This document shows positions 25,756 to 58,058 of a DNA stretch of 64,000 nucleotides, piece by piece. The notes under the pieces are model-generated. The model was not told the origin of the DNA. It ran no database searches and saw only the letters and a list, made by a program, of their open reading frames with translations. The position numbers were made by a program, and so were the translations under genes. The stretch's first letter is position 1; each line of letters begins with the position of its first letter. This DNA comes from Brachycybe producta (Eukaryota; Arthropoda; Diplopoda; Playtdesmida; Andrognathidae): NCBI GenBank assembly GCA_036925085.1, contig JAUPFP010000019.1, positions 2,050,001-2,114,000 of the forward strand. Reading direction: 5' to 3'.

Positions 25756-26919
25756 ATCCTCTCAACTTCCCTGATCCGCCCCGGGATCAGGTCAGTCGAG
25801 ACAGCAAGGATTGCTCCTGTGACCCCCACTCAGTTTCGGGCTGAATTCATCGGCGGTGGAACCACCGGAGTGCCCACCACTCCGATATCCACCGACGTGC
25901 CCACCACAGGCACATCCGGGTGTTACGCCACCCGCCTCCGATAGCGAACTCAGTCCTCTGAGCCTTGCCTCTTCTTGCCGTCGAAACACCTCGATGGCTA
26001 GAGTGGCAAGCTGCGGACCCTTACGTAGGGTCCGACTCGTTAGAAGATCTACGAGGGCGGCTGCGGGATCAGACTCGCTCCCTTGTAGCGGTTGGACAAC
26101 AAATTCTCCAACCATCTCTTCTAAGTCGCAGCCAAGGAGACGCTGGACGTATGGTGCCGCGAGCTGGACTAGACGAACTAATCCAGCTCCTGTCCCCATC
26201 ACATCCAAAAACGCGAAACGTCTCCTAACCGGGTTGACGACCAACAACCCCGGAAAATCTCTACCGCCAAAAGCAAGCACATACCGCATGCTAAATGACG
26301 GCAACAACAGCAACCATGGTACCGGGAGTGGCTCTCCCAAACGGTAATAACCAAGGTACTGGAACCTCTCCATTCCCGGCTGGTCCTGCCACAGACCAAG
26401 TCGGTTATTCAGAAAGACCTCTCCTTCTGAATACGGAGGACTGGCTCCAGAATGTCGACCCTTGCCCGCAGGCTGGGGAGACCTGGCTTCCTCTTCCGGT
26501 CCTAGGGTCCCAAAGACCCCTTTGTCAGGACAGGAGAGAAGGGTGTCCTTCCAATGGAAGGCACGGGACCACGTTTGGCAGGAACACTAACTGTCCCCAC
26601 CGGGCTGCCCCCGCATCTAGGTGAATGCGAGCTGACCCGGCGGAGAGTTCCCACCGACCGAACCCGTGGGTTCGGTACCGTGACCACCTTCGGGGAGGAT
26701 GGAGGTATACCGAGAACAACGTCTCGCATTGACCTGCCATCCGTCCGCGCCGTCATTACCTGACGGGTATGGTACGGCTGGTTCCCGGCCGACACGGTCG
26801 CACCGTGTCGGGACTCCTCCTCGTCCGTCCCAACCCTTCTGGTAGTCGTCCCCAGGGACTCCTGACCAGAAGGTCCTGGACCTCCCTTCTTCCCAAACCT
26901 GGACTTTTTCTTGTCCACC
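25756..26919 (-). pseudogene. element B accessory region, C-terminal part
   Basis: - strand frames encode the counterpart of the last 330 or so residues of element A's accessory region: RSMRDVVLGI, YYRLGEPLPVPW, MRYVLAFG, LLVVNPVRR, GTGAGLV, LAAPYVQRLLGCDLE and VDLLTSRTLR. No known domain recognised. Separated from its N-terminal part by the insertion of A. Confidence 0.8.
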
Positions 26920-27780
26920 TGTGACGACCCAGTTCTGCTCCTTTTTGGTGCAGAACTAAATCCCATGTCGTCTGCTAGGCACTTGCTAAATTGAGTGCCA
27001 GGCAGACGACAAAATGGCCAGCAAGGGTCCCTGTCCTCCCCCAGGCTGCTCCACCTGGGGGAGGACAGGGACCCTTGCTGGCCATTTTGTCGGCGGCCAT
27101 TGTATACTGGACAGTGGAATGAGAACCCTTGTTCTTGGTGGATGTGATTGTGTGCTCTCGTCATTGTGCTTCTACAAGTGGCAAGATGGCTGCCACTCCA
27201 ATTTTGTGGATGGAGGTGAATGACCTCTCCTCCTGGCAACAATAGCCAGGAGACTCATCTTTTGTTCATCGTTTGTGCATCTCTTTGTTGGCTCTCTGCT
27301 GGTACAATTACCAGCAGATATTGCCTTTTATAGTGAGTGTTTTATTTATTCTATTGCTGAATAAATTATATATTTATTTTCACTCTCTCAACCACTGTGT
27401 CCGTGTCTTTCATTTATTATTTACTTTAATAATACATTGTGGGGAAGTTACCGCGGGGAGGGTGGGGGTTCCCGGTGGGTTTTCACCGTCACCATCACCG
27501 TCCTGTCCGTCATGTGTTCCGGCATGTCGGCCGGTGCTTCGCGCGCGGTTTATCCACGGTAGGATTCATCGGGAATCTACCGTAGATTCCTCGACTTGTT
27601 CGGCGGTCGTTCGTCCGTCGACTTGCGGCGGGGAGGATCCTCCGATCGGCGCTACCCGTGGCACGGACGGGTACAAGAGGAGGGCTGGCCAGCGCTTCGA
27701 CCCGTCCCAAGGAGGGTCAGCGACGGTAAGTTAAGTCGAATTTACCGTGGGTATTGTAGCGACCAAGTCGGGTCGTTACA
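26920..27780 (+). repeat. 5' LTR of element A
   Basis: Starts TGTGACGACCCAGTTCTG and ends GTCGGGTCGTTACA. AATAAATT polyadenylation signal near 27359. The downstream half is GC-rich with paired CCGT/ACGG motifs. 861 bp, 17 bp longer than its partner because of a perfect palindrome at 27008-27091. Confidence 0.95.
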
Positions 27781-28642
27781 ATTGGTGGAGGCGCCGGGTA
27801 GCGCTACGACCAGCCTCTTTTGTGCGGTCGGTAAGACCGGAGTCGTGTGGTGCCGGTAGGGCGTGGACATTTGTCCACGGAACTACGGCCGAACGCGGCT
27901 TAGGGCGTAGTAGTCCGGTGAAGGACCGTGGGACACGGACGGTTGTCCGTGATACCGCGGTGGTCACCGGGGAAAGCCCTAGGTTATCCGTAAGTAGGAC
28001 GGTGGGCGCGGTGGTTGACCGTGCAGGACCGTCCGAACGCGGGATAACGGTCTTTTTACCGTCAGTATACCGGTGGCACGGTGATTTACCGTGCGGAACC
28101 GGTAGAACCCGGTGAAAAGGGGAACTTAACCGTAGCTTGTCCGGTAGACAGGTAGTACGCCATAGGGCACGGACTTTTGTCCGTGGAACTACGGCGGAAA
28201 CCCGTCTGCGGCCAGGTTTACCGGTGTTATACCGTGGGACACGGACTTTTGTCCGTGATACCGTGGTTAAACCGGGTTACGGTCAAGTTTTACCGTAAGT
28301 AGACGGTGGATTACGGACTTTTGTCCGTGAATCACCGTTCGAACACGGTAAGAAGTCGGTTTCACCGTTGGTGGACGGTAGATTGCGGACCGTTGTCCGT
28401 GTATCTCCGTTCTGGGACGGTGAAAGAGCTTTGTACCGTGATTAGACGGTGAACATCGGACGGTTGTCCGTGTATCACCGGTCGAAAACGGTAAGAAGGA
28501 ACTCCACCGTAAATCTGACCGTGGGACACGGACTTTTGTCCGTGAAACTGCGGTAGTTTACGGTTCTACCGTTAATTGTCGGTGTTTTGCGGACTCTTGT
28601 CCGTAAATTCACCGTATTGCACGGTAGAGTTTCTTCCAACAA
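27781..28642 (+). other. element A leader with hairpin array
   Basis: Untranslated leader after the 5' LTR. A primer-binding-like TGGAGGCGCCGGGTA is near its start. At least nine hairpins of the form ACGGACnnTTGTCCGT occur at about 27863, 27935, 28168, 28238, 28314, 28385, 28456, 28526 and 28589, each followed by ACTACGG or ATCACCG. Spacing is about 70 bp over the second half. No long conserved frame. It could serve RNA packaging, translation initiation or regulation, which is inference. Confidence 0.75.
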
Positions 28643-30515
28643 GTGGTGGCCAGTTTTGCCCGTGTTCGCACGGACGAAATCGGCCAAGACCCTGTTTTCC
28701 CGATGTCTGGTCGGGGAAGCAGTTTGTTGGAAGGATTGGAGTTGCGTTCCCGCACCATCGGCCGCGGTAGGCGGCCGGAGGGGCGGCACCCTGTTGAGGG
28801 TGCTGTTGGCGGGAATGCACCCGGTGATTCCACGGAGGAAGGTGTTGTAGAGGTTGAACCTACGGACCAACCTCCGGCTGGAGGCTTTGTGACGGTGCGG
28901 ACGCACCGTCGGGACACTGCCTCCGGGGGAGCACCGGGAGACGGTGGTGATGGAGGGTCACCGACCCCAACTGGGACAGGCGTACGGCCTATGGCCGGCC
29001 TGTTAACCTCCACCGCCTCCCGTCCTGTTGGACGTGGAGGTAATCCCTTAGCGGGAGAGGTGGTAGGGACCCCGGGGCCACCCTCAGTGAACACGACGTC
29101 ATGGTTGGCGTCGATGACTGAGGAGGAGCTCCGTGAGGTTGCCAGGGGGATTGATGAACTGCGATGGCAGGGTCATCTTTCCCCAGGGGTCGGGCGGCTC
29201 CATCGGTCGCAACCTCGGTTCACACCGTCGCCTGTGCACCGGGAAGGTGCAGGTAGAGAGGTGCCGCCGGCTCCGGCCAGGCGGGTGCCTCCAGGTGGAG
29301 GAACTCGGACCGCTCCTATGGGAGGCGGTCGGGGAGTTCCTCCGCCCGTTCAGCGACCACGGGTCCACTTGGTGGAGCCCGAGGATGCTGAATCCGATGC
29401 TGAGACTTCGGGGAACCGGAGCAGGGCACCACGGCGGGTAACCGTGGACGCCTGCACCGGCTGTCCCGTCGGAGATCCAGGCGTTTGGGTTTTTCAACCC
29501 GGTTCACTCGTTCATCCGGTATGATGGACGAGAGGACATTACGCCTTTTCTCCGGCAGTTCAAAGCCAAAGCTCGGGCTCAGCGCTGGACGGATGAGGCC
29601 AGGTGCAGTTTCTTTACGTACCTGCTCGATGGTCCGGCTGAGGAACATTACGCCTGTTTGGTGGAGTTCAAGCCGAACCTGACCTGGCCGGAGTTGAGGC
29701 AGGCTATGCTTCACCGCTTTGGGACGAAGAATCAGGCTCAGGCCTGTTTCGACCGTTTCGAGGCCATGAAGCAAGGGCCTGCGGAATCACTCCAGGCGTT
29801 CTACTGGCACTTTATTGAGCTAGCAGAACGAGTTTCTCCTGGTGAGGATGAGTCTTGTCGACTCCTCCGATATAAGAAGAAACTGCAGCCGGAGATTCTC
29901 AGACCTCTCTGGGGATCGAAAGCTCAGACGGTCAGGGACTTTACCACCGAGGCAATGTTGGTTGAGGCCGACATGCTTACGGCGGGAGCGTTACCTGCCC
30001 GTACCTTGACGGTACCAGGGACCCAGGCTGCGGCCAAGGTCTCTGGTGCTGTGGCAAAGCCCAAGAGCTCTGCTACGTCTACCTCTACCTCTTCGGGTGC
30101 GAAGGCAGCGGCACCGTCCAAATCGGATGGAGCTACTGCCAAGACCGGAGGGCAGAAGGGAAGAAAGACGAAGCGGCAGAGCCAGGGTGGAAATAAGTCC
30201 ACAGCAGCCCCGTCAAGTTCCAGCCAAACGGCTGGAGGTGGAGGTCCTACTCGTAGGCAGCCAGGTCCATGCTTTCGGTGTAACCAAATGGGTCACCTTA
30301 GGAAGGACTGTCCGAGGGCAGTTGCCCAAGGACAGGTTGCTCGAGTACCACCGGGCGAAAGCCCAGTGGTGCAGTACCTGCCGGGTCTGGCACCCGTGGT
30401 ACTGCAGGGCCGGGAGTATCTGTCCACCGTCATTGATGGACAGATGTTCTATCTACCTGTTGCCAGAAACGAGGGCCCGCCCTCGTTAAACCGGCGCCGG
30501 TCCCTGCAGAACTGA
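28643..30515 (+). pseudogene. gag: element A gag region
   Basis: Pro/Gly-rich N-terminal part followed by a Gypsy-type capsid region (LTWPELRQAM, SLQAFYWHFIELAERVSPGE), a Ser/Thr/Lys-rich linker and one CCHC zinc knuckle, CFRCNQMGHLRKDC (30270-30311). Gag forms the particle and binds RNA. Not one open frame in this copy. Confidence 0.85.
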
Positions 30516-30532
30516 GCTGCAGTCGACCGGTA

Positions 30533-32167
30533 ATGCTACAAAACTCAGGTGCCCGGCAAAGCCGGCGAAGTAAAGAAGGAGCGTACCTTCGGGCAGTCTC
30601 CAGATATGTGGGTATCCTGCATGACGCAGGGGTGCCTCTGGCTAGGTCTGCGGACCCAGAAATTACCCAGTGGGTATTTCAGGAGCCAAGCCCCACACTG
30701 GAAGCTGCGCTTGCCCGGCTGGAGAGCTGGGTGGCACCTTTCTTCCCTGAAGAGGGGGAGGAAGGTCCGAATGGTACGGGCATTACGAGGGCTTCGAGCG
30801 TTGGTGCGCCCATGCTGTCGCCCAGGCCTGGTGGGTCTCCTGGTGTGGAGACTGGAAGCCAGGCCCCTGAGCATCCGGTACGACTGTCCCCTGGGGACAG
30901 AAGGACGGATGAGGCTCAGAGAAGTGATGTCGGGCAACGACGGTTGCCCATTCCGGAATTACAAAGCCGTGCTTACTTGCGTGGGGCACCGCGTGTTCTG
31001 GTGTCGATGGATGGTCGGCTGGTTGAGTCGATCGTCGACACCGGTGCCGAAGTATCGGTAATGAGCATGTCGGTGGCACGGGAGATGGAGTTACCGGTGC
31101 AGGAGGTTAGCCTCCCCTCATTCCTGACGGGCATGAGCGGGTACTCCATCCAGATAGAAGGAGTCATGTACGTGGACATGTCAATCCACGGACGGTCCAT
31201 ACATACCCATCTTCTCCTCATTGAGGGTGAAGGGGAAGCCGTAATAGGTGTTGACCTGGCTTCCCGGTTTGGGTTAATGTTGGACGTCGTGAGCCGGAAA
31301 GTTTATTTCCGGGAAGACATCTGGAATGCACATTCAGATGCTCTTCATGCCGCACTGGCCGTTCAGGCTTTGCAGGGTACTTCGGTACAACTTCCGAACT
31401 CTGTGGTGGAGGCGTTGGCGAGGCTTCACGATTCTGTGGAGCCGGTGCTACTCCCTCCTTTCGGGTTCCCGGAAGGTATGCCTGCGGAGCCTGAAAAGGT
31501 GGATGGGTGGGTTGACATTGTGTCACCCATGCTTGCCGAGACCAGTTCTCCAATTAGGAGAGGGGAAGTTTGTTCCCTGCGACTGTTGCAGAACGTATGG
31601 TTATCAGCTCATGAGCGGAAGGTAGTTTCCGTGAGCTTGATAGAGCATGCTGGCCCTGGACAGCTGCTTCTCGTTGAGCCCCATCGTAAAGCCTTAGGAG
31701 GCCGTGGTCTGTTGGCGGTGGCAGGAATTGCCGAAGCCACAGAGGAAGGCTCTTACGACATTTGGCTTGAGAACGTCGCCGACGTACCCATTGCCCTGGA
31801 GACAGGGGAGGGTGTGGCGACAGCTCAAGCTGTGGAGGCAGCCCTAGTGGTGGGACTGGACGTTCCATCTAAGTTGAGAGGGGGAGACCCCACTCATGGA
31901 GATGGTCGACCAAGGGGGCTTCCGCCTAAGTTGAGAGGGGCGACCAAGAAAGGTCGCCGGATCCTCAATGCGGAAGTCAAGCCCACTCTCGAAGAGTGCC
32001 TTAAAATCGGACCTAGTCTGAAGCCTTATGAGGCGGCACAGCTTAGGGAGTTCCTGCTAGAACGCCGTGATCATTTTGCGTTCGATTATACAGAGCTGGG
32101 GGAAACCCCGCTCGTCGAGCACACTATTGATACCGGTGGGTTACTAAGGCGGATCAGTACCCGTTAG
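30533..32167 (+). pseudogene. pro: element A protease and linker to reverse transcriptase
   Basis: Retropepsin signature DTGAEVSVMS at 31037-31066, inside VESIVDTGAEVSVMS, followed by a flap-like region and IGVDLASRFGL. The downstream linker VWLSAHERKVVSVSL leads towards the RT N-terminus (FAFDYTELGETPLVEHTID). The enzyme would cleave the polyprotein. Closely matches element B. Confidence 0.85.
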
Positions 32168-32253
32168 CTCGCATCGATGATGCCCTCGATTCACTTGCTG
32201 GAGCGAAGTATTTCGCAACTCTAGACCTTGCTAGTGGTTACTGGCAGGTCAGG

Positions 32254-34560
32254 ATGGCGGAGCAAGACATTGAGAAGACAGCATTCATTTGCTCTCAAGG
32301 TCTGTTTGAGTTCCGAAAAATGCCTTTCGGACTCTGCAATGCTCCTGCCACTATGCAAAGAGCGTTAGACCTCTTGTTGGCGGGACACAAGTGGGAGAGC
32401 TGCTTGGTGTACCTAGACGATATTATCGTCTTTGGGAGCACCTTTGAGCAGTTTCTCAAACGCTTGAGTACTGTCCTGAGACTGTTACGAGGGGCGGAGC
32501 TGAAACTCCAGCCGAAGAAATGTTTCTTCGGTTTTGACAAGGTCAAATATCTCGGTCACATTGTTAGTGCCGAGGGAGTTGCTCCGGACCCGGGTCTCGT
32601 AAGAGCAGTCGAGGAGTTCGATGTCCCTACAACGGTGACCGCCGTCCGAAGTTTTCTTGGACTGGCCGGCTACTACCGTAGGTTCATCAAGGACTTTGCC
32701 AAGATCGCAAGACCACTGCATGATCTGACCAGAAAGGATGCGTCCTTTGACTGGTCGGAGCAGTGTGGTCTAGCTTTCGAACGGTTAAAGGCATTTTTAA
32801 CCGAAGCACCGGTGCTCACCATGTACGATCCACGTGGTGAGGTGTTAATTCACACCGATGCTAGTGGGTACGGTCTAGGTGTCGTAGTATACCAGAAGTT
32901 ACCTGAGGACAAGGCTCCTCGGGTTCTGGCCTACGCTAGCCGTCTCATGAAGGGACCGGAAACACGGTATAGTGTCACCGAGCAGGAATGCTTGGCGATC
33001 ATGTTTGCCGTGGGTAAATTCCGACCTTACATCTTTAACCGGGACTTTGTGATCGTAACTGATCACCATGCGCTCTGTCATTTGCAGACTGCCAAAAACC
33101 TGCAAGGCAGGTTGGGGCGTTGGCAAATGCAGTTGCAGGAGTACCGGTATAAGATTCAGTTTAAGAAGGGGAAACTTCACGAGGATGCTGACTGTTTGAG
33201 TCGGTATCCGGTGAATGAAGTTGTTGATCCTTCTTTGCCTGAACACGTCGAAGCCGACGTGGGTGAGGTGATTTACCGGATCCGGTCTGAGGTGGATTGG
33301 GTAATGGAGCAGGCCAACGACAGTTGGTGCTCCAAGGTGAAGCGTGAGCTCTCCGCCGACCCCGACTCGAACTTAAGGTTCAAGTTCGTGGTGGCAAACA
33401 AGTTGTTGTATGCCATCAAATCCATCCAGGATCGCACTAGAACTGTGTTGGTTGTGCCGAGGTCGTGTCAAGCCTTCTGCTTGCGGAAGTTGCACGATAG
33501 CTCCGAAGCTGGTCACTTCGGAGTGTACAAGACCTACCAACGGTTACGTACTCGTTTCTACTGGTTAGGTATGAAACGTGACACGGTGGAGTATGTTAAG
33601 TCATGCTTAGTGTGTCAGAGAGTACGACAGTTCGCAAGAGCTCAAGGATTCTTGCAACCCATAGTTCCTGAGTACCCGGTTCATGCCTGGGGAATGGACT
33701 TCGTTGGGCCTTTTCCCGCGTCCGTGGGTGGAGTCACATATGTATTGATTATGGTGGACTACTTCACCCGGTACGGCGTGGCAAAGGCAGTACGAAGGGC
33801 TACGGCCGCTTGTGTTGTCAAGTTTCTGAAAGATGAGATCTTGTCGGTGTATGGCACACCGACTACTCTCATCTCGGATCGTGGATCCCAGTTCTGTAGC
33901 AGGGTTTTGCGAAAGTTCCGGGAGCGCTATAATATAGCGCAGCACTTCACGACGGCGTACCATCCGCAAGCTAATGGGCTTACGGAGCGTACGAACAAGA
34001 CCGTGATGGAAACCATCAAGCGTTACCTTGATCCCCTCAAGGAGCAACGTGATTGGTGGGAGAAATTGCGGCCCGCCGTGTGGGCCTACAACACTGCGGT
34101 GCAGGAGAGCACGGAAGTGTCTCCGTACCAATTGTTGTTTGGTCGTGAGCCTAGGTTGGGGATTGACAATCTCCTCCCTAACGGTCCGGTCCGCGACTTG
34201 CCCAACCAGCAAGCCGTGGAAGAGCGTGCTCGTCAAAATTTGGCGGCCGCTCAAAGCAGACAGAAGAGTCGGTATGACGCCGGCCGGGTGGAGCCACCCC
34301 GATACCAGCCTGGTAATAAGGTCTGGATAAGGGACATGGCTGGGAAGCTCGGTCAAGCCAAGAAGTGGAATTTCGCTTACAAGGCTGAACTGGGTACGGT
34401 GGTCCGGCAGGTTTCCGACCTGGTCTACGAGATAGAATTCATAGATGGGTATGGTCGGAAGGTGCGGGACCGGTTTCATGTAGATAACTTGAAGCCGTAC
34501 GTTCCCACATGTGGGGTTCGTGAGGAAGATGGCCTAGGCGGCTCTGAAACCTCATCGAAC
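32254..34560 (+). CDS. pol: element A pol: RT, RNase H, integrase
   Basis: Long open frame. RT with MPFGLCNAPATMQRA and catalytic YLDD at 32410-32421 (LVYLDDIIVFGS). RNase H with HTDASGYGLG and VTDHHALCHL. Integrase with an HHCC zinc region (AGHFGVYKTY to SCLVCQ) and DDE core segments WGMDFVGPFPA, LISDRGSQFC and YHPQANGLTERTNK. Then a GPY/F-like TVVRQVSDLVYEIEF. Classic Ty3/Gypsy order with RNase H before integrase. The same frame continues without a stop into the accessory region, ending at 38955. Confidence 0.93.
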
Positions 34561-37500
34561 TCTGAAGGGACCAGTGATGCTGAGTCTGGGTCAGCTAGAA
34601 GTGAAAGGAGGGATGATGTCTCTCCAGGACCTTCTGGCCAGCCTAGCTTGGTGGTGGAGTCAACTGACTCTGAGGCAGAGGAAGCACCTCGGCCCCGGTA
34701 TTACCTCCGTCCGAGGAAACCCAGGGCTTTTGAGGTTCTGCAAGCTTCCTCTGGAGCTCCAATAGGCACCAGGGTGGTGCAGGGACTTTGGAAGTCCCTG
34801 TCCTGGTGGGAGAGAGCAGGTCATTCTCTGCTTTGGGATGATGACTTGAATTGGGGAAATAAGGATTGGGAGCGCAGTGACCCCTGGACTGGGCGCCGCC
34901 TGTCTGTCACGGACAGATGGCGGTTGTCCAGGGGGAGCTGGGTGGAGAAATCCACAATTCCCAGCTGCAAACCCGAAGAGGAGTCTGCAGCAGTGATTTC
35001 TCCTAAAGATCTCTCTCCTGAGTCTTTCCATAAAGATTCATGCCGTGTATCTGCTCCTATTGTGGCAGACGACGGTAGAGTCTCTATGGTAACAGCAATG
35101 GAGGCGGCTAATGATGTTTTAGCTGCCAAGCCGCCGCTGTTAGTCGTTTCTAAGGTGAAATTAGCTGCTAAGCGCCATCTTGTTTTCAAATTGAAACATA
35201 GACGGTCGTTTGCCGCTATTTTTAAAAGAAAACGTCTATTTCACCGACGAAACGGCAAAGATTCAGAACAATTGGATGCTTCAAAACAAGAAGTAAGTCC
35301 CCAAAGGGGAATCTCCTTTTCCTGCCCTTTGGCAGTATTCTTTTATTGCTTTTGGGTGTGTCAAGCGGTCATTGACCGCTTGAACACGTGGTTTTGGTGG
35401 AGGCATCACCGTAACAATTTTGACGGTGATGCTACCGCCGATGGGGCCGTGTATAACACGGTGGTTTACCGTCAGAACACCGTGGGACTTGGTGGAGACC
35501 AAGTTCTACGGAGTTTAGATGGTGAAAAGGTGTTTTTGCACGGTTCTGTCCGTGAAACCACCGTGGAAAATGGTTTCGACCGTGATCCTCTGTGTTCTAA
35601 CGGATGGAAAGTGGTTTTGCACGGTAGTTGTCCGTGTAAACCACTCCCCAAGGAGCCTGAATTGTCGGTGCCAGGCTTGGACGGTCCAAACACTTGTTTG
35701 GCCGATTCCGACCGTGCGGGTCCCGTGAAGGACGGTTTTTACCGTGGGTCACGGGATATGCACGGTGGAAACGGGATTTCCTACGGTGATTTACCGTGGA
35801 AATCACCGCCCAAGTTACCGAACGTAAAATTACGGAATTTGGACCGACCTAGAATGTTTTTGGCCGGTTCCGACCGTGCAATTACTGTTGGGGACGGCTT
35901 TGGCCGTGTACCACGGTGCCTGCCCGGCCGGAAAACATTTTTTCGCGGTTTTGGTCCGTGGAAAATGTTTCCTACCGTAGTAGGTCGAATACTTACCATG
36001 TTTTTTGATCTCTTTCAGGTAGCCACGGCGGAGAAGGAAGAAACTGGCGGGGGTGGCAGCGGTTCCTCCTCCCTCAGCTCTTTGCATCCGGGTGATGCAG
36101 AGCTGTTGGAGTCGGATGCCGCTTGCTCCCCGGATTCTTTGGGTCGGGCCATAGCTGACTTGGCCGACGGCGGACCTTTGGGTCTGCTATTGGCTGATGA
36201 CGCTGTGGTGACCCAGCCGTCCCCTCTGACCCCTCTATATTATGGGTCTGTTTGGGGACGGTTGACACCGCCTCCCACCGTGGGTTCTCCGAGGGTGACC
36301 ATTAGGTTGGGAGCCATGGAGATCCCGGCGGTTGGTGAGCCGGTGCGGGCCAGCACGCCCGTCGAGGAGGTGGCCACCGGTTTGGCAGCTACCTCTTTGA
36401 CGAAGTGTGATCCTCCGGCGGACCAAAGCCGGCTAGAATTGGCTAGCCTGGCTGAGGGAAGCAGGGATGCCTCCTTGGGAGGAACCCTGGTCATTGACAC
36501 GGAGGCAGAGATGGACACCATGGAAGATGATGTGGTGCCCGTCTCCAGGCGGTGGCGAGGCCAATGGATCTTCTCTTCAGAGGACTCTTCGGAGTCTGAA
36601 GGGAGAGGATCAGGCTCCTTGGGTAAACGGTCTGTGACCGGATCCCAGGAGGGTACTCCAGCCCGGAAGGGCAGTCCAATTCTGGTCGACCCTGTTGGGG
36701 AGGCGGAAGCGGCCTGTCTGGAAAGGCAGGATGAAGCCGCGCAGTACCAAACGGCGTCAGGTGGTTTCCTGGCGTCGGATGGGAAACGCTACTTCGTTGA
36801 GGAGTACCCTACCCAGCAGTTCCGTAAGGACGGTTCTAAATCCAAAAAGAAGTCCGGAGCTGCTCGGTACACCGCCAGGATGAAAGCCCTGGCGAAGAGG
36901 GAGGCACAGTTGGAGCGGACGAAGGCTGCCTTGGCGAAGTTCACGCTGGCAGTGGGTCTTCTCCCTGTGTCACCAGCTCATCCTGAGGGAGCTGCTGGTG
37001 CTGCCTGGCCTGTTGGTCAGCCTCCGGTTTCGGGACCAACCGAAGCGGAGGCTGGCTGTTCAAGCTGGCAGTCCGCAACTCCCAAGAGGGACCGAAGAGC
37101 GGAAAAGAAGGCCAATCAGCCTTCTCCTCCCGCTCCGAGGAAGAGCACTCGTGCCAGTGGTGGTGGTGGTCAGGGACAGAAACGTCCCCGCCCCTTCACC
37201 CCACCTTTGGCCAGTAATCCGGTGGGAAAGAAGGCTAAGACCTCTCGTGGAGGTCCGGCCGGCTTTCCCAAAGGAAAGTGGAGCCAGGAGGACCGCTTGC
37301 GGTACCACCAGGCACAAGCGGCCAGATGTGCTGCCCTTGTCCTGCGGGACAAGAAGGCTGCACGCCGTTGGGAGTTTGAGCTCCAGGCCTCTCAGTTTCC
37401 GCCCCTGCGGGACGCTGATGCCAGGAATCCGCTCAGTACAGGGGAACCTCCCGTCGGAGTTAGTGCCACTCCTATTGCGAGTGCCACCACGGCTGCTGGC

Positions 37501-38955
37501 CAACAGCGTATCGCCCAGAGGGGGGCGATACAAGCTGCCAAGGCACCTCACCAAGGTGCGGCAGTTAAACCTGTTGGTGGCAAGGGTCAGCCGACCCTTG
37601 CCCCGGAGAAGAGAGATCTTCCCCGGGATGGAAAGGGACGCTTCGTGGCGACACGAGCGCCCTCGACCATCAGTTCGGCTACGGGAGCTAGTTCAAAGAC
37701 TAGTACAGCTTCGGCTAGAAAGTCTGCGACTAGGAAGTCCGGTCAATCGAAGGGGACTAACCACCCTCCTAAGACTGACCGGCCCGGTAAGTCTGTGAGC
37801 TTCGGTGCGTCCAGCTCACAGCGCGGTGAACCTTCTTCTCATGACAAGAAGAAAAAGAAGAAGAAAAAGGGCAAGAAGGCCCGTCATGAGAAGAAGGGAG
37901 GTCCGAAAGCTTCCACCCATGGGTCCCAGGGGGGGACTGGTGGTGGTGGAAGTATCGGGACCGAGGAGGAGGAGTCCCGACACGGTGCGGCCGTGTCGGC
38001 CGGGAACCAACCGCACCATACCCGTCATAGTAGGACGGCGCGGATGGATGATCGGTCAATGCGAGACGTTGTTCTCGGTATACCGTCATCCTCCCCGAAG
38101 GTGGTGGCGGTACCGAACTTGTTAGTCCGGTCGGTGGGAACTCTCCACCGGGTCAGCTCACCGTTACCTAGCGGTGGGGGCAGCCCGGCGGGGAAAAGTA
38201 ATGTTCCCGCCAAACGTGGTCCCGTGCCTTCCGAAGGAAGGACACCCTTCTCTCCGGGTCCCGATGATGGGGTCTTTGCGGCCCTAGGACCGGAAGAAAG
38301 AGCCAAGTCTCCTGAGCCCGAGGGCGAGGGTCGACGCTTTGGTGCGGAGCCTCCGTATTCAGAAGGAGAGGTCTTTCTGAATAACCGGCTTGGTCTGTGG
38401 CAGGACCAGCCGGGAATGGAGGGGTACCAATACCACGGATACTATCGTCTGGGAGAGCCACTCCCAGTTCCGTGGACGCCGTCATTGCCGTCATTTGCCA
38501 TGCGATATGTGCTGGCATTTGGCAGTACAGACTATCCGGTGTTGCTGGTCGTCAACCCGGTAAGGAGGTGCTTCACTGTTCTAGACGTGGTGGGGACAGG
38601 AGCTGGACTTGTACATGTAGCCCAGCTCGCGGCCCCATACGTCCAGCGTCTCCTTGGCTGCGACTTGGAAGGAATGGTGGGAGAATTTGTCACCCACCCT
38701 CTACGAGGTAGCGTGTCCGATCCCGCGGCCGCCCTCGTAGACCTTCTGACAAGTCGGACTCTTCGGCAGAGTCCGCAACTTGACACACTTGCCGTCGAAG
38801 CGTTTCGACAGCAGGAGGTGTTAAGACTCAGGGGGACTGATTTCGATGTCGGTCTCGGGTGGAGAAACACCCGGATGTGTTCGTGGTGGATACGTCGGTG
38901 GATGTCGGAGTGGATGGTGGCTCCGATGAATCCACCACCGAAGAAATCAGTCTGA
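34561..38955 (+). CDS. element A accessory region, unknown function
   Basis: In frame with integrase, about 1,460 further residues. In order: acidic/Ser-rich linker, YYLRPRKPRAFEV, a hairpin-rich intron-like stretch (35293-36018), acidic Ser-rich part (WIFSSEDSSESEGRG), a predicted coiled coil (ARMKALAKREAQLERTKAAL), Lys/Pro-rich low complexity with KKKKKKKKGKK, RSMRDVVLGI, and a compact C-terminal domain near 38390-38830 (YYRLGEPLPVPW, MRYVLAFG, VVNPVRR, APYVQRLLGCDLE). No signal peptide, glycoprotein-like cysteines or convincing membrane anchor, so it does not look like an envelope. Conserved in element B. I do not recognise it. Confidence 0.75.
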   Translation, partial: SEGTSDAESGSARSERRDDVSPGPSGQPSLVVESTDSEAEEAPRPRYYLRPRKPRAFEVLQASSGAPIGTRVVQGLWKSLSWWERAGHSLLWDDDLNWGNKDWERSDPWTGRRLSVTDRWRLSRGSWVEKSTIPSCKPEEESAAVISPKDLSPESFHKDSCRVSAPIVADDGRVSMVTAMEAANDVLAAKPPLLVVSKVKLAAKRHLVFKLKHRRSFAAIFKRKRLFHRRNGKDSEQLDASKQEVSPQRGISFSCPLAVFFYCFWVCQAVIDRLNTWFWWRHHRNNFDGDATADGAVYNTVVYRQNTVGLGGDQVLRSLDGEKVFLHGSVRETTVENGFDRDPLCSNGWKVVLHGSCPCKPLPKEPELSVPGLDGPNTCLADSDRAGPVKDGFYRGSRDMHGGNGISYGDLPWKSPPKLPNVKLRNLDRPRMFLAGSDRAITVGDGFGRVPRCLPGRKTFFRGFGPWKMFPTVVGRILTMFFDLFQVATAEKEETGGGGSGSSSLSSLHPGDAELLESDAACSPDSLGRAIADLADGGPLGLLLADDAVVTQPSPLTPLYYGSVWGRLTPPPTVGSPRVTIRLGAMEIPAVGEPVRASTPVEEVATGLAATSLTKCDPPADQSRLELASLAEGSRDASLGGTLVIDTEAEMDTMEDDVVPVSRRWRGQWIFSSEDSSESEGRGSGSLGKRSVTGSQEGTPARKGSPILVDPVGEAEAACLERQDEAAQYQTASGGFLASDGKRYFVEEYPTQQFRKDGSKSKKKSGAARYTARMKALAKREAQLERTKAALAKFTLAVGLLPVSPAHPEGAAGAAWPVGQPPVSGPTEAEAGCSSWQSATPKRDRRAEKKANQPSPPAPRKSTRASGGGGQGQKRPRPFTPPLASNPVGKKAKTSRGGPAGFPKGKWSQEDRLRYHQAQAARCAALVLRDKKAARRWEFELQASQFPPLRDADARNPLSTGEPPVGVSATPIASATTAAGQQRIAQRGAIQAAKAPHQGAAVKPVGGKGQPTLAPEKRDLPRDGKGRFVATRAPSTISSATGASSKTSTASARKSATRKSGQSKGTNHPPKTDRPGKSVSFGASSSQRGEPSSHDKKKKKKKKGKKARHEKKGGPKASTHGSQGGTGGGGSIGTEEEESRHGAAVSAGNQPHHTRHSRTARMDDRSMRDVVLGIPSSSPKVVAVPNLLVRSVGTLHRVSSPLPSGGGSPAGKSNVPAKRGPVPSEGRTPFSPGPDDGVFAALGPEERAKSPEPEGEGRRFGAEPPYSEGEVFLNNRLGLWQDQPGMEGYQYHGYYRLGEPLPVPWTPSLPSFAMRYVLAFGSTDYPVLLVVNPVRRCFTVLDVVGTGAGLVHVAQLAAPYVQRLLGCDLEGMVGEFVTHPLRGSVSDPAAALVDLLTSRTLRQSPQLDTLAVEAFRQQEVLRLRGTDFDVGLGWRNTRMCSWWIRRWMSEWMVAPMNPPPKKSV

Positions 38956-39035
38956 AACTGAGTGGGGGTCATGGGCGCAATCCTTGCTGGCTCAGCCGAC
39001 CTGATCCCGGGGCGGATCAGGGAAGTTGAGAGGAT

Positions 39036-39879
39036 TGTGACGACCCAGTTCTGCTCCTTTTTGGTGCAGAACTAAATCCCATGTCGTCTGCTAGGCACTT
39101 GCTAAATTGAGTGCCAGGCAGACGACAAAATGGCCAGCAAGGGTCCCTGTCCTCCCCCAGGTGGAGCAGCCTGGGGGTGTATATAATGGCGGCGGCCATT
39201 GTATACTGGACAGTGGAATGAGAACCCTTGTTCTTGGTGGATGTGATTGTGTGCTCTCGTCATTGTGCTTCTACAAGTGGCAAGATGGCTGCCACTCCAA
39301 TTTTGTGGATGGAGGTGAATGACCTCTCCTCCTGGCAACAATAGCCAGGAGACTCATCTTTTGTTCATCGTTTGTGCATCTCTTTGTTGGCTCTCTGCTG
39401 GTACAATTACCAGCAGATATTGCCTTTTATAGTGAGTGTTTTATTTATTCTATTGCTGAATAAATTATATATTTATTTTCACTCTCTCAACCACTGTGTC
39501 CGTGTCTTTCATTTATTATTTACTTTAATAATACATTGTGGGGAAGTTACCGCGGGGAGGGTGGGGGTTCCCGGTGGGTTTTCACCGTCACCATCACCGT
39601 CCTGTCCGTCATGTGTTCCGGCATGTCGGCCGGTGCTTCGCGCGCGGTTTATCCACGGTAGGATTCATCGGGAATCTACCGTAGATTCCTCGACTTGTTC
39701 GGCGGTCGTTCGTCCGTCGACTTGCGGCGGGGAGGATCCTCCGATCGGCGCTACCCGTGGCACGGACGGGTACAAGAGGAGGGCTGGCCAGCGCTTCGAC
39801 CCGTCCCAAGGAGGGTCAGCGACGGTAAGTTAAGTCGAATTTACCGTGGGTATTGTAGCGACCAAGTCGGGTCGTTACA
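39036..39879 (+). repeat. 3' LTR of element A
   Basis: Preceded by purine-rich GGATCAGGGAAGTTGAGAGG. Starts TGTGACGACCCAGTTCTG, ends GGTCGTTACA, followed by the target duplication CACC. 844 bp. The open frames on both strands within it are identical to those in the 5' LTR, showing near identity. Confidence 0.95.
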
Positions 39880-41516
39880 CACCTTCTGTTTCTTCTTTTG
39901 GGAAGAAGGTTTACCGTGCTTTGAGCCGGACACACCTACACTCAAAGACTCACCGGGCCGGCCAGACTTAGGAGGGTGGTTAACCCCATTCGAGTGACTG
40001 GACTTCTCAACCGAAGCCTTTCCAGCCGAAGCTGTACTCGCCTCCGAGTTGACTCCCGTAGCCGACTTGACAATTGAGGACGGTCGTGCCTCCACAACCC
40101 ATCCTCTTTCATCACGGAAAATTTTTACTTTCTCTGGTGCAAGGGTCGGCTGACCCTTGCTACCAACAGTTTTAGCTCCCGCACCTTGGGTAGGTGCCTT
40201 GGGAGCCTGCATCGCCCCCTCTGGGCAATGCACTGTTGGCCAGCGGCGGTTGTGGCACTCGCAACACGTGCGACACCACATCCGACAGGAGGTTCCCCTG
40301 TAACGAGCAGATTCCGGACTTCAGTTCCCCGCAGGGGCGGAAACTGAGAGGTCCGGGGCTTGAACTCCTGACGGCGTTCAACCTGCTTAGCTTTCTTTAT
40401 CCGAGCTTCGCACTTTGCCGCTTGAGCCATGTGGTACCACGCACGGTCCTCATAGCTCCACTTGCCTGCAGGGAAGCCGGCCGGACCTCCATGTGAGGTC
40501 TTGGCCTTTTTCCCTGCCAGATGACTGACCACTGGTGGGGTGAAAGGGCGGGGACATTTCTGTCCCTGACCACCACCACCACTCACTGGAGTGCTCTTCC
40601 TAGGTGTGGATACTGAAGGCTGGTTGGCCTTCTTCTCCACTCTTCGGTCCTTCTTGGGAGTCCCAGACTGCCTACCCGAAGCACCAGCCACTGCTGCGGG
40701 CGAACCCACGGCAGGAGGTTGGTCTTCAGGCCGGGCAGCCCCTGGGGCTCCCTCAGGATGAGCACGGGCCTCAGCCAGAGGGCCTACTGCCGGCATAAGC
40801 AATGCCATGGCAGCTTCCCTCCTCTTAAGCTGAGCCTCTCTCTCAGTAAGAGCCCTCATCCGCGCAGCGTACCGAACAGCACCGGACTTCTTAGATTTTG
40901 ACTTGTCCTTACGGTGCTGCTCGGCAGGGAACTCCCCGACGTAGGATCGTTTCCCATCCGCCATCAGAAAACCTTCCGACGGCATCTGGTACCTCCGACT
41001 TTCGTCTAACCGATCAAGTCGGTCCTCCTCAGTTTTCCCCGAAGGGTTAACGTCTAGAGGACTCCCTTGAATGGTGGGAGTACCCTCCCGGGATCCAGTC
41101 ATCGATCGTTTACCCGGGGAGGCCTTTCCTCTCCCTTCAGACTCCAAAGAGTCCTCTGAAGAGAGGATACATTGGCCTCTCCACTGCCTGGTGATGTGCA
41201 CCACGGAAACCTCCGTTGTGTCCATCCCAGCCTCCGGACTTTCCTCAGCCAGGCTAGCCAATTCTAGCCGGCTTCGGCTTACCGGAGCTACCAATTTTCT
41301 ACTGGCAACCAGTGAACCTGCATCTTTCCGTTTCCTCCGCTGAAACAAACGTTTCAGGAGCCCACTAGCAGCAAACGACTGTCCCTGTTTACTTTTCCAA
41401 ACAGGATGGCGCTTAGCCGCTAATATTACCGGAGGAACGGCCAGCATTGATGCAGGAGAGAGATCACGGTAGGAAACTTCATCCGCAGACTTAGCACCAA
41501 GTCTGCAGCTGGACAT
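39880..41516 (-). pseudogene. element B accessory region, N-terminal part
   Basis: - strand open frame of about 460 codons. It matches A's accessory region with SRLELASLAEE, SLESEGRG, ARMRALTEREAQLKRREAAM, GQGQKCPRPFTPP, GKKAKTSHGGPAGFP and TSQFPPLRG. The hairpin-rich block of A (about 35293-36420) has no counterpart here. Element A begins immediately beyond its left edge. Confidence 0.8.
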
Positions 41517-43637
41517 TACAGATTTCTCAACCCAGTTCTCCCCGGGCGACCGCCATCTGTCCGTGACAGACAGGCGATGTCCCGTCCAGGGGTCTCTGGG
41601 TGCCCAGTTCTTGTTCTTCCGAACCAGGCCATCATCCCACTCCAGGGATCGGCCTGCTTTCTCCCACCAGGGTAGGGACTCATAGAGTCCCGACGAGTCC
41701 TGGCACTCTCTGGTGGCCCAGAGGAAGCTTGCATCACCTCAAAAGCCTTCGGTTTCCTCGGACGGAGGTTATACCGGGGCTGAGGTGCTTCCTCTGCCTC
41801 AGTCGGTAGACTCACTAGCCAAGCCAGGCCGACTGGACGGTCCTGGAGGAACATTATCGTCCTCCACCGTCCTATCATCCTGGGACTCAGCATCACTGGT
41901 CCCACTGGAGTTCGATGAGGTGTCAGAGCCACCTAGGCCATCTTCCTCACGAACTCCACATGTGGGAACGTACGGCTTCAGGTTATCAACATGAAACCGG
42001 TCCCGCACCTTCCGACCATACCCATCTACGAACTCTATCTCATAGACTAGGTCGGAAACCTTCCGGACCACCGTACCCAGTTCAGCCTTGTACGCGAAGT
42101 TCCACTTCTTGGCTTGGCCGAGCTTCCCAGCCATATCCCTCATCCAAACCTTCATACCAGGTTGGTACAGGGGTGGCTGCACCCGGCCAGCGTCATACCG
42201 GCTCTTCTGCCTCGCCTGAGCGGCCGCCAAATTTTGACGAGCACGCTCCTCCACGGCTTGCTGGTCAGGCAAGTCACGGATCGGACCGTCAGGAAGGAGA
42301 TTATCAATCTCCAACCTAGGTTCGCGGCCAAACAACAATTGGTACGGAGACACTTCCGTGCTCTCCTGCACCGCAGTGTTGTAGGCCCACACGGCGGGCC
42401 GTAACTTCTCAAACCAATCACGTTGGTCCTTGAGGGGATCAAGGTAACGCTTTATGGTCTCCATTACGGTTTTATTCGTACGCTCCATAAGCCCATTTGC
42501 TTGCGGATGGTACGCCGTCATGTGGTGCTGCGCTATATTATAGCGCTCCCTGAACTTTCGCAAAAGCTTGCTACAGAACTGGGATCCACGATCCGAGATG
42601 AGAGTTGTCGGTGTGCCATACACCAACAAGATCTCATCTTTCAGGAACTTGACAACACAAGCGGCCATAGCCCTTCGTACTGCCTTCGCCACGCCGTACC
42701 GAGTGAAGTAGTCCACCATGATCAAAACATAGGTGACTCCACCCACGGACGCAGGAAAAGGCCCAACGAAGTCCATTCCCCAGGCATGAACTGGGTACTC
42801 TGGAACTATCGGTTGCAAGAATCCTTGAGCTCTTGCGAACTGTCGTACTCTCTGACACACCAAGCATGATTTAACATACTCCACCGTGTCACGTTTCATA
42901 CCTAACCAGTAGAAACGAGTACGCAACCATTGGTATGTCTTGTACACTCCGAAGTGACCAGCTTCGAAGCTATCGTGCAACTTCCGCAAGTAGAAGGCTT
43001 GACACGACCTCGGCACAACCAACACAGTTCTTGTGCGATCCTGTATTGATTTGATGGCATACAACAATTTGTTTGCCACCACGAACTTGAACCTTAAGTT
43101 CGAGTTGGGGTCGGTGTAAATTACCTCACCCACGTCAGCCTCGACGTGTTCAGGCAAAGAAGGATCGTCAACTTCATTCACCGGATACCGACTCAAACAG
43201 TCGGCATCCTCATGAAGTTTCCCCTTCTTGAACTGAATCTTATACCGGTACTCCTGCAACTGCATTTGCCAACGCCCCAACCTGCCCTGAAGGTTTTTGG
43301 CAGTCTGCAAATGACAGAGTGTATGGTAATCAGTTACGATCACAAAGTCCCGGTTAAAGATGTAAGGTCGGAATTTACCCACGGCAAACATGATCGCCAA
43401 GCATTCCTGCTCGGTGACACTATACCGTGTTTCCGGTCCCTTCATGAGACGGCTAGCGTAGGCCAGAACCCGAGGAGCCTTGTCCTCAGGTAGCTTCTGG
43501 TATACTACGACACCTAGACCGTACCCACTCGCATCGGTGTGAATTAACACCTCACCACGTGGATCATACATGGTGAGCACCGGTGCTTCGGTTAAAAATG
43601 CCTTTAACCGCTCGAACGCTAGCCCACACTGCTCCGA
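41517..43637 (-). pseudogene. pol: element B RNase H and integrase
   Basis: - strand: HTDASGYGLGVVVYQKLPED, VTDYHTLCHL, the zinc-binding AGHFGVYKTY to SCLVCQ, the DDE region WGMDFVGPFPA, LISDRGSQFC, YHPQANGLMERTNK, and RKVSDLVYEIEFVDGYG, then YNLRPRKPKAFEV. Very close to element A. Confidence 0.88.
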
Positions 43638-46085
43638 CTAGTCAAAGGACGCATCCTTCCTGGTCAGATCATGCAGTGGCCTTGCGACCTTGGCAAAGTC
43701 CTTAATGAACCTACGGTAGTAGCCGGCCAGTCCAAGAAAACTTCGGACGGCGGTCACCGTTGTAGGGACACTGAACTCTTCGACTGCTCTCACGAGTCCC
43801 GGGTCTGGAGCAACTCCCTCGGCACTAACAATGTGACCGAGATATTTGACCTTGTCAAATCCGAAGAAACACTTCTTCGGCTGAAGTTTCAGCTCCGCTT
43901 CTCGTAACAGTCTCAGGACTGTACTCAAGCGTTCAAGAAACTGCTCAAAGGTGCTCCCAAAGACGATAATATCGTCTAGGTACACCAAGCAGCTCTCCCA
44001 CTTGTGTCCCGCCAACAAGAGGTCTAACGCTCTTTGCATAGTGGCAGGAGCATTGCAGAGTCCGAAAGGCATTTTTCGGAACTCAAACAAACCTTGAGAG
44101 CAAATGAATGCTGTCTTCTCAATGTCTTGCTCCGCCATCCTGACCTGCCAGTAACCACTAGCAAGGTCTAGGGTTGCAAAATACTTTACTCCGGCTAGCG
44201 AATCGAGGGCATCATCGATGCGAGGTAGCGGGTACTGATCCGCCTTTGTCTGGGCATTCAGTCTCCGATAGTCCACACAGAAACGAAAGCCACCATCCTT
44301 CTTGCGAACAAGTAAGATAGGGCTTGCGTAAGGACTATGCGAAGGTTGGATTACCCCTGCATCCAACATTTTCGCTACCTCTTCTCGCTCGATCGCACGA
44401 GCCGCTGGAGCGGTTCTTCGCAATCCTTCTCGCACCGGAGGTAACCCACCGATATCAATCGTATGTTCGACGAGAGGGGTTTCCCCCAGCTTTGTGTAAT
44501 CGAACGCGAAATGATCACGGCGTTCCAGCAGGAACTCCCGAAGCTGTGCCGCCTCTTCAGGCTTCAGACTAGGTCCGATTTTAAGACACTCCTCAAGAGT
44601 GGGTTTCACTTCCGCATTGAGGACTCGGCGACCTTTACCGGTCGCCCCTCTCAACTTAGGCGGAAGCCCCCATGGCCGGCCATCTCCATGAGTGGGGTCT
44701 CCTCCTCTCAACTTAGATGGACCGTCCAGTCCCACCACAATGGCTGCCTCCACAGCTTGAGCTGTTGCGACACCCTCCCCTGTTTCCAGGGCAACGGGAA
44801 CGTCAGCAACATTCTCAAGCCATATATCGTAAGTGCCTTGTTCTGTGGCTTCGGCAATTCCTGCCACCGCCAACAGACCACGGCCACCTAAGGCTTTACG
44901 ATGGGGCTCTACAAGAAGCAGCTGACCAGGGCCAGCATGCTCTACCAAGCTCACGGAAACCACCTTCCGCCCATGAGCTGGTAGCCATACGTTCTCTAAC
45001 AGTCGCAGGGAACAAACATCCCCGCTCCTAATTGGAGAACTGGTCTCAGCGAGTTCAGGCGACACAATGTCGACCCACCCATCCACCTTTCCAGGATCTG
45101 CAGGCATCCCTTCCGGTATCCCGTAGGGAGGGAGTAGCAGAGGCTCCACAGAATCGTGAAGCTTCGCCAACGCCTCCACTAACGAGTTCGGAAGCTGTAC
45201 CGAAGTACCCTGCAAAGCCTGATCGGCCAGTGCGGCATGAAGAGCATCTGGATGTGCATTCCAGATGTCTTCCCGGAAATAAATTTTCCGGCTCACGATG
45301 TCCACCATCAGCCCAAACCGAGAAGCCAGGTCAACACCTATTATGGCTTCTCCTTCACCCTCAATGAGGAGAAGATGGGATCTGATGGACCTCCCGTGGA
45401 TTGACATGTCCACGTACATGACTCCTTCTATCTCGACGGAGTACCCGCTCATGCCCGTCAGGCATGAGGGAAGGCTAACCTTCTGCACCGGTAACCCCAT
45501 CTCCTGTCCCACCGACATGCTCATTACTGATACCTCGGCACCGGTGTCGACGATCGACTCAACCAGCCGATCGTTCATCGACACCAGAACACGTGGTGCC
45601 CCACGCAAATAAGCACGGCTCTGTAATTCCGGTATAGGCAACCGTCGTTGCCCGACATTACTTTTCCGAGCCTCATCCGTCTTTCCGTCTGTAAAGGACG
45701 GTCGTACCGGATGCTCGGGGGTCTGGGTACCAGTCTCCAAACCAGAAGACCTACCAGGCCTGGGCAACAGCATGGGCGCACCAACGCTCGAAGCCCTCGT
45801 AATGCCCGTACGTTTCGGACCTTCTTCCCCACAATCAGGGAAGAAAGGTGCCACCCAGCTCTCCAGCCGGGCAAGCGCAGCTTCCAGTGTGGGGCTTGGC
45901 TCCTGAAATACCCATTGGGTAATCTCCGGGTCCGCAGACCTCGCCAGAGGCACCCCTGCTTCATGCAGGATTCCCACGTACTTGGACACTGCCCGAAGGT
46001 ACGTGTCGAAGGTTCGCCGGCTTTGCCGGACACCTGAGTTTTTAAGCGTACCCGGTCGACTGCAGCTCAGTTCTGCAGCGACCAT
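43638..46085 (-). pseudogene. pol: element B protease and reverse transcriptase
   Basis: - strand frame of about 815 codons with VESIVDTGAEVSVMS (protease) and RT motifs FCVDYRRLNAQTKADQYPLP, MPFGLCNAPATMQRA and LVYLDDIIVFGS. It is the longest open stretch of this fossil copy. Confidence 0.88.
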
Positions 46086-46645
46086 TGCCGGTTTAACGAT
46101 GGCGCACCATCGTCTCTGGCAACAGGCAGATAGTATGTCTGTCCATTAATTACGGTGGACAGACACTCACGGTCCTGCTGTACCACGGGTACAAGACCCG
46201 TGCCATACTGCACCGCCTGGCTTCTGCCAGGTGTCACCCTAGCAACCTGTCCTCGGGCCAAAGCCTCCAGACAATCCTTCTTCAAGTGACCCATTTGGTC
46301 GCACTTGTAGCATGGACCTGGTTGCTTCCGGGTGGGACCTCCACCTACAGCCATTTGTCCAGACCCAGACGGGGCTGCTGTGGACTTATTTCCACCCTGG
46401 CTCCGCCGCCTAGTCTTATTACCCTTCTTCCCTCCGGTCTTGGCAGTCGCTCCATCCGCATTGGACGGAACAGTCGCCTTCGCACCCGAAGGGTTGGAGG
46501 AAGACTTAGCAGAGCCTTTGGGCTGTGCCACAGCACCCGAGGCCTTGACCGTAGTCTTGGTCTCTGGTACCGTCAAGGTACCGGCAGGCAATTCACCCGC
46601 CGTCAGCATGTCGGCCTCAACCAACATTGCCTCCGCGGTGAATGC
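46067..46645 (-). pseudogene. gag: element B gag, C-terminal remnant
   Basis: - strand: EAMLVEADMLTAGELPAGTL, a Ser/Lys-rich linker and a zinc knuckle CYKCDQMGHLKKDC. The element stops at about 46645, directly against the alternating purine-pyrimidine tract. Confidence 0.82.
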
Positions 46646-46649
46646 CGCG

Positions 46650-46945
46650 GTGCACGCATGTGTGTTCACATGTGCGCATGTGTACGCACATGTACGCACT
46701 TGTGTTCATGTGTACGCACATGCACGCACTTGTGTTCATGTGTATGCACATGCACGCACTTGTGTTCATGTGTATACACATGTATGCACATGCGTACATG
46801 TGCGAGCACATGTGTACACGTGCGTTCACGTGCATACATGTGTACACGTGCATACATGTGTACACGTGCATACATGTGCACACGTGCGTACATGTGCGTC
46901 CACAAGCGCGCACGTGTGTACATATGCACATGCATGTTTTGTAAA
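46650..46945. repeat. alternating purine-pyrimidine minisatellite
   Basis: About 300 bp made almost only of alternating purine and pyrimidine, with imperfect units such as TGCACGCACTTGTGTTCATG and GTGTACACGTGCATACAT. Such DNA favours Z-form and many small palindromes. It produces open frames on both strands (CTHMCV..., ACTCVH...) that are repeat artefacts. It forms the broken 5' edge of element B. Confidence 0.85.
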
Positions 46946-57496: not shown

Positions 57497-58058
57497 TTTT
57501 CTTCCAATTTCGACGTTACGGTCGAAACGCTATTGGATTTCCTTTTTGAATATTTCAACTTCTTCATCCTCAGATGATTCGATCCAAGCATTTTGGCATC
57601 TACAGTGTCCACAACATCTCTTCTTCCGGGAAGGTAAGTTCTTTTTGACAAACGCTGTCATATTCTTTTCTTTTGCAGGTTCCGATTAGGATTCTTCGAG
57701 GGGTGAGTTACCCATGGACTCCAGGGTGTCTCCAGTCGTTAGAACATTGGGTCCTTCTTGTTGGTAAGTCTCATATAGTGGTCTCAGGTTAACAACATTT
57801 ACAGTCTTCCACTAATCTTCCAGCTCGATTTCCGTATGATAATTGGTATACGGTGTCTGATACCTTCGCGACAATCGTATATCCCTGTCTCCATTTTGTT
57901 AAGAACTTATTCTGGCCAGGCCTGATTCGCATGTCTCCCACAAGTACTTTCTGACCAATTTGATACTCATAAGGCTTCTTGTCGCTGTCGTAGTATTTCT
58001 TCCGACGATCATGTGCTGCTTTCAGGTTCGCTCTGACTGCTCTTAGTTTATCTTCTTT

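Follow-up and report, generated by a model that had tools for sequence, protein, structure and literature searches.

A millipede Gypsy family whose pol frame continues into a long accessory region with islands of purifying selection and a candidate degenerate ULP1-like domain

The Gypsy element studied here, element A, lies in a 64,000-nucleotide stretch of the genome of the millipede Brachycybe producta (assembly GCA_036925085.1, contig JAUPFP010000019.1, positions 2,050,001 to 2,114,000, forward strand), which is called the window below and in whose own numbering positions are given. In the family to which A belongs, the pol polyprotein runs past integrase into an accessory module of about 1,050 to 1,460 residues without a stop or a change of frame, and parts of this module are held by purifying selection. 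The explanation that we favour, tentatively and in the knowledge that it could well be wrong, is that the module is encoded by pol, made together with integrase, and ends in a degenerate ULP1-like binding domain. Coding regions behind the integrase of Gypsy elements often come without a known fold, a selection test or a function. Because this genome holds many intact copies from two subfamilies, a clean test is possible, in which pol, a coiled coil and a C-terminal domain (CTD) proved to be held and the linkers between them to be freer.

The open frame of A that contains integrase extends over 32131-38955 (2,274 codons), and 1,464 of its codons lie beyond 34560, that is, past integrase; an initial annotation of the same DNA had put this extension at about 1,460 codons. 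Further upstream, near 32140, pol of A is interrupted: relative to B, the opposite-strand copy inside which A is inserted, it has a deletion and a frame break, and part of the reverse transcriptase (RT) is missing. The coding parts of A are listed here, with Pfam E-values for the known domains and, for the accessory parts, the ratio of non-synonymous to synonymous change (dN/dS) between A-type and B-type copies (A-B).

29442-30515, plus strand: gag (Retrotrans_gag E 2.5e-7; zinc knuckle E 7.5e-6)
30437-32167, plus strand: protease part of pol, an open frame that overlaps gag in a different frame, with DTGAEV in its translation
32131-33399, plus strand: RT and RNase H (RVT_1 E 1.7e-25; RT_RNaseH E 3.4e-33), start of RT missing
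33454-34500, plus strand: integrase (Integrase_H2C2 E 1.3e-19; rve E 4.1e-17)
34561-35298, plus strand: acc1, first accessory linker, common to B-type copies; dN/dS 0.62, with 0.39-0.47 at 34654-34893
35299-36348, plus strand: acc2, insert limited to the A subfamily, with one hydrophobic stretch; no match in 4/4 B-type copies
36349-37119, plus strand: acc3, coiled-coil island with KREAQL at 36895; dN/dS 0.337, windows of 0.09-0.41 over 36637-37116
37120-38040, plus strand: acc4, basic low-complexity linker, net charge +41 in 307 residues; dN/dS 0.664
38041-38400, plus strand: acc5, linker that starts near RSMRDVVLGI; dN/dS 0.576
38401-38832, plus strand: CTD, candidate degenerate ULP1-like fold (from models and Foldseek), with the conserved block beginning at about 38365; dN/dS 0.196
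38833-38955, plus strand: short tail and stop codon; dN/dS 0.633 (bootstrap 0.292-2.103)

By sequence comparison the accessory region stands apart from known domains, as the initial annotation had proposed in calling it a large region of this kind that is not envelope-like. When scanned in three pieces, 34561-38952 gave no Pfam match at E up to 1, and four pieces spanning 32131-38952 gave no Pfam chromodomain behind integrase. No homologue at E up to 10 was found for 36241-38952 (7,994 candidates scored, search words taken from the first 500 residues only) or for the last 215 residues of 34561-38952 (1,829 candidates) in sources that included NCBI nr and UniRef, with length limits of about 500-1,580 and 805-2,560 residues that hide proteins as long as the full 2,897-codon frame described below. 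Searches of PDB sequences with the accessory region returned chance-level matches only (best E 1.1 and 0.66), and nothing in the window reached the Rfam gathering threshold.

Expression as part of the pol polyprotein is the simplest assumption, because no stop separates integrase from the tail, gag and pol overlap, and pol carries what we take to be the DTG motif of an aspartic protease (DTGAEV in the translation). The module would then be translated along with integrase, become packaged into the particle and be released by the element's own protease. A different route is suggested by the CERV protein of Cer1, a Gypsy/Ty3 element of C. elegans. According to the available text on that system, CERV combines a leucine zipper with a putative nuclear localisation signal and a domain that resembles a GTPase but is without critical residues (PMC10309623). 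The accessory region of A might likewise yield a nuclear regulator, made mainly from a spliced mRNA, that exports the element's genomic RNA. This seems unlikely to us, even though the region occupies the same site between integrase and the 3' long terminal repeat (LTR), has basic runs and a coil, and is preceded by an A leader that holds three GTAAGT donors where 0.6 would be expected, with acceptor-like sites at 34619-34641; both the donor and the acceptor signals are weak. Compared by description, CERV resembles the region in being element-specific and non-envelope, in having its C-terminal half coded between pol and the 3' LTR, and in containing a predicted enzyme-like domain short of critical residues, but it is described as a spliced, GTPase-like product of 517 amino acids, whereas the A family has 1,050-1,460 codons and a different predicted fold (PMC10309623, available text).

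The 295-Mb genome was the source of all family copies surveyed. Its sequence fits an arthropod host: a 401-base stretch of COX1 is open in the invertebrate mitochondrial code (and in some other codes too), and for its SENP8-like gene the top match is a protein of the insect Timema (47% identity). A query of 210 residues taken from the tail's end gave at least 150 matches (the best 150 of 1,411 candidates), among which exact frame lengths recur: 2,897 codons in 12/150, the subfamily of A, and 2,478 codons in 4/150, a second subfamily that includes B. The two are about 78-79% identical in the part searched. A query of 72 coil-region residues also gave at least 150 matches (the best 150 of 888 candidates); more distant relatives of the CTD were not found in this genome among the best 150 candidates scored per search. 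Traced backward from the CTD, the frame stays open over the entire accessory region in 21 A-type and 4 B-type copies; this test is biased in that copies were picked for long frames. Stops are present in 24/25 of the other frames of five pieces, the exception being one reverse frame of the 120-codon acc5; in A-type copies the median for one forward frame of acc4 is just one stop. Overlapping-frame coding in acc4, considered because of low synonymous divergence and dN/dS values above 1 in some windows, was not supported, the other five frames having 7-14 stops per B-type copy.

Selection was measured with Nei-Gojobori counts between 21 A-type copies (A itself and L031-L050) and the only four B-type copies available (L051-L054), the 24 copies from outside the window having been chosen for long frames; one of the 21 A-type copies had no match in acc1 and was dropped there. 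Within pol, A-B dN/dS was 0.052 for RT, 0.143 for RNase H and 0.095 for integrase. Codon-bootstrap intervals were 0.109-0.324 for the CTD (0.196) and 0.236-0.491 for the coil region (0.337), and for the linkers 0.458-0.859 (acc1), 0.489-0.920 (acc4) and 0.338-0.975 (acc5). In sliding windows, 34654-34893 appears as the weakest of three islands, the two clear ones being at about 36640-37356 and 38329-38808. Purifying selection is thus real, yet limited to islands of the accessory region. The initial annotation had spoken of blocks kept while linkers drift, and had named a dN/dS near 1 as evidence against selection; the values of 0.20 and 0.34 for the CTD and coil, well below 1, against about 0.6 for linkers bear it out. 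Its coil motif, said to be common to A and B, is KREAQL in A but EREAQL in B.

That the region is a non-functional passenger whose frame is kept open by hitch-hiking is hardly credible on these figures. Such a passenger could account for the linker dN/dS of about 0.6, for the dispensability of acc2, and for values near 0.8 within the four B-type copies (CTD 0.791, coil region 0.747, from few differences). Against this, the A-B values of CTD and coil (intervals rounding to 0.11-0.32 and 0.24-0.49) differ from 1, and frames of exactly the same length recur. Within the A-type copies, dN/dS was 0.169 for the CTD and 0.220 for the coil region.

The remnant of an envelope gene that had become fused to pol would also occupy this location after integrase, and the extension of one arthropod Gypsy element is discussed, in the available text, as a possible env remnant (PMC7998251). 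Envelope features were judged by hydropathy alone, and the one candidate in A is a single hydrophobic stretch at 35317-35373 (Kyte-Doolittle mean 1.85), which leaves the claim of the initial annotation that the region lacks a membrane anchor uncertain for A. This strongest stretch is restricted to acc2, the part unmatched in B-type copies; in L051, the only B-type copy in this comparison, hydropathy peaks in the CTD (top two maxima 1.44 and 1.34), and the coil and CTD are under purifying selection. An envelope relic is accordingly disfavoured and would be a very improbable origin.

Divergence at four-fold degenerate sites indicates that the module and pol do not share one history. Between the A and B types it is 0.10 in RT, 0.11 in RNase H and 0.16 in integrase, compared with 0.33 in acc1, 0.36 in the coil and 0.38 in the CTD; acc4 (0.22), acc5 (0.17) and the tail (0.15) are intermediate, and A-A divergence is 0.02-0.07 in all parts. 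Because pol is so much less diverged, it appears that pol (32200-34500) was exchanged between the subfamilies after their CTD, coil and acc1 had split, and that the accessory module has a history of its own. Such an exchange could be explained by template switching between co-packaged genomes. The combination of a homogenised pol with older accessory parts suggests that retroelements can swap their enzyme core and keep separate accessory modules.

A ULP1-like fold for the CTD had been guessed before any structure was computed. Two low-confidence AlphaFold models, one with A first and one with B first, both show a strand, three strands, a helix, a strand and helices, and the top 11 Foldseek matches of each in the PDB were all ULP1/SENP-type proteases, none of them significant: SENP1/2, Den1 (first run only), Ulp1 and the chlamydial ChlaDUB/Cdu1, all of which we take to be members of clan CE. 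Yeast Ulp1 (2hkp) was matched with Foldseek probabilities of 0.89 and 0.94 by the two models. Other comparisons gave less: VIA-align did not rank clan CE first for the CTD, Pfam gave no significant match (only SWC7, E 0.26, in 2/15 aligned members), and our own C48 profile was not significant against it. The best local match found by hhalign lies on the proposed His-Asp register. The spacing of Tyr57 and Asp74 in the CTD (17 residues) equals the His-Asp spacing of a 123-sequence C48 profile composed mostly of SENP8, and Asp74 and Pro120 are 46 residues apart, compared with 43 in the profile. The best ungapped diagonal lies one residue off this register and the exact register ranks 2/348; in 0/500 column shuffles did the top diagonal fall within one of it. 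The outcome is that the initial annotation's caveat, that a clear match to a known domain would remove novelty, did not come into play, weak structural matches pointing instead to a ULP1/SENP fold without its active site.

The active-site positions were surveyed in 46 distinct copies, after matches shorter than about 120 residues and identical repeats had been dropped. The position of the catalytic Asp holds Asp in 46/46, whereas the proposed His position is occupied by Tyr (36) or Phe (10) and the proposed Cys position by Pro (43), Leu (2) or Ser (1). Because His and Cys are replaced in this way, the CTD should not be an active peptidase. In the register one residue off, the proposed His position is Asp in 15/15 aligned members. 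The oxyanion Gln expected before Cys was generally not recovered (Arg 41, Gln 2, stop 2, Leu 1), and the position of the WLND-type motif reads Phe-Leu-Asn in 46/46, yet its diagonal ranks only 35/348.

It is possible, though on balance we doubt it, that the CTD has another strand-helix fold with a different function, either GNAT acetyltransferase-like or not yet seen. The third strand is followed by G-T-G-A-G-L in 15/15 aligned members (not in every decayed copy), which to our eye resembles the GNAT coenzyme loop, and GCN5 and phage and bacterial acetyltransferases are among the structural matches. GCN5, however, ranks twelfth behind the 11 clan CE matches, with a TM-score of 0.21 compared with 0.39 for Ulp1, and no Pfam acetyltransferase was matched.

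Under the favoured reading of a pol-encoded module with a degenerate ULP1-like end, the CTD would retain a ULP1/SENP-like (clan CE) fold that has lost its active site and now works by binding, with a ubiquitin-like modifier or a host protein that carries a modification as the most plausible partner. The coil and the long basic linkers may hold nucleic acid and oligomerise; it is from basic composition, with a net charge of +41 over the 307 residues of acc4, that nucleic-acid binding or chromatin targeting is conjectured. Linker, coil and CTD might act with integrase in the particle or the nucleus. Through binding by the CTD, the incoming complex would be tethered or protected once in the nucleus, a role like the one ascribed to the chromodomain of chromoviruses. 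A more specific version, to which we assign a low probability, is that a ULP1/SENP protease domain was captured, lost its His and Cys, and now, under selection, reads SUMO or some other ubiquitin-like modifier without catalysis; the element would thereby use the host modification system for integration targeting or protection. If the CTD does have a dead ULP1 fold, it would link the retrotransposon integration machinery with SUMO/ubiquitin signalling in a way that is cheap to test.

Extra coding after integrase is already known, and it is the present arrangement that appears unmatched among the systems compared, as far as the available texts go. Gypsy_Ds1 of the ostracod Darwinula stevensoni, also from an arthropod, has an in-frame pol extension past integrase that has a coiled coil and no detectable homologues; unlike the module of A it is only 250 amino acids long and has remote similarity to viral spike coiled coils, and the available text describes neither a selection test nor a folded C-terminal domain (PMC7998251). 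Ginger1 elements carry a Gypsy-like integrase, which has a GPY/F motif, and behind it a C-terminal protease domain of the Ulp1 or OTU type, but as described they are DNA transposons with a Ulp1 recognisable by sequence, whereas A's family consists of LTR elements in which, if related, the active site is missing (PMC2836005, available text). Plant Gypsy elements also have extra coding beside pol with a conserved domain, such as TRP28 of Retand, for which DNA binding is proposed, and the orchid 2-ODD; these reading frames are, in the accessible accounts, separate or antisense and contain other domains, unlike the in-frame continuation of pol in A (PMC11963269, PMC9289625). Varied captured genes likewise lie beside gag and pol in bdelloid rotifer LTR elements, but there, according to the available text, a third open reading frame (the ORF3 types) codes for enzymes already known or for an envelope (PMC5408684). 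In a search of open-licence PubMed Central papers, no Gypsy polyprotein with a ULP1-like or dead-ULP1 domain was found.

Element A as a whole occupies 26921-39879. Its LTRs and short target duplication, its pol order of RT-RNase H-integrase and the zinc knuckle in its gag (both from Pfam) place it among Gypsy (Ty3) elements. The remaining features of A and B are as follows.

26916-26920, no strand: left target-site duplication CACCT, with the right copy at 39880-39884; a 5-base overlap in 4/4 B relatives
26921-27090, plus strand: A's aberrant 5' end, in which a fold-back comes after a copy of the 3' untranslated end and polypurine tract (direct and inverted repeats)
27091-27780, plus strand: 5' LTR of A, 690 nucleotides exactly as in the 3' LTR; first bases apparently missing
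39178-39879, plus strand: 3' LTR of A, 690 nucleotides from 39190 as in the 5' LTR; start at 39178 inferred
39880-46145, minus strand: upstream part of B, decayed pol and first accessory half (open frames 43638-46145, 41799-43637 and 40125-41738)
25756-26920, minus strand: downstream part of B, last accessory blocks and CTD (CTD at 25954-26424)

The 3' LTR is taken to start at 39178 because TG there follows the purine-rich CCTGGGGG. Element A is judged young, because its LTR blocks are identical over 690 bases (offset 12099). About 170 bases of its own 3' end and a fold-back precede the 5' LTR, within the target duplication, with a direct repeat of 96% (26920-27061 and 39036-39177) and an inverted repeat of 97% (27038-27098 and 39117-39177); this 5' end looks like an aberrant product of reverse transcription that was normally integrated. 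The halves of B are uninterrupted in 4/4 relatives (L051-L054), where they share a 5-base overlap that is the CACCT duplication. The initial annotation had B as an older, diverged copy of A. B is indeed on the opposite strand with a counterpart of the accessory region (inverted matches, in blocks, of A 34670-39059 with B 41802-39883 and 26839-25732) and a CTD 80% identical to that of A, but it belongs to the second subfamily: it is 93.4-94.2% identical to L051-L054 over 39880-41000 and 96.2-96.6% over 25701-26920, and A's 35299-36348 is unmatched in that subfamily.

The 5' leader of A contains a tandem array (28287-28546; 72-base units, 3.6 copies) with GTAAG at 28295, 28348 and 28491, and alternating CACGTG/ACGCAC-type repeats lie at 46654-46922, at the truncated start of the gag frame of B. 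A third, decayed Gypsy element, C (55810-61066, minus strand), has an RT-RNase H 54% identical to that of A; its post-integrase open reading frames of 272 and 158 amino acids have no Pfam match, and its post-integrase region showed no significant similarity to the tail of A. Elsewhere in the genome there are other repeated genes with C48 (Ulp1-like) domains, which are possibly DNA transposons: two of 1,049 codons each score above the Pfam cut-off (C12:3728210 and C27:1094205), and three inverted pairs 5-6 kb apart, of 844-1,088 codons, fall below it at E 0.41 (C2:4232005/4237984, C5:5401240/5407219 and C38:894947/900173). ACATTTGCCCTAAA-like repeats form two arrays in the window, and behind each of these comes an array of the reverse-complement TTTAGGGCAAATGT (7072-7641 and 11460-11778).

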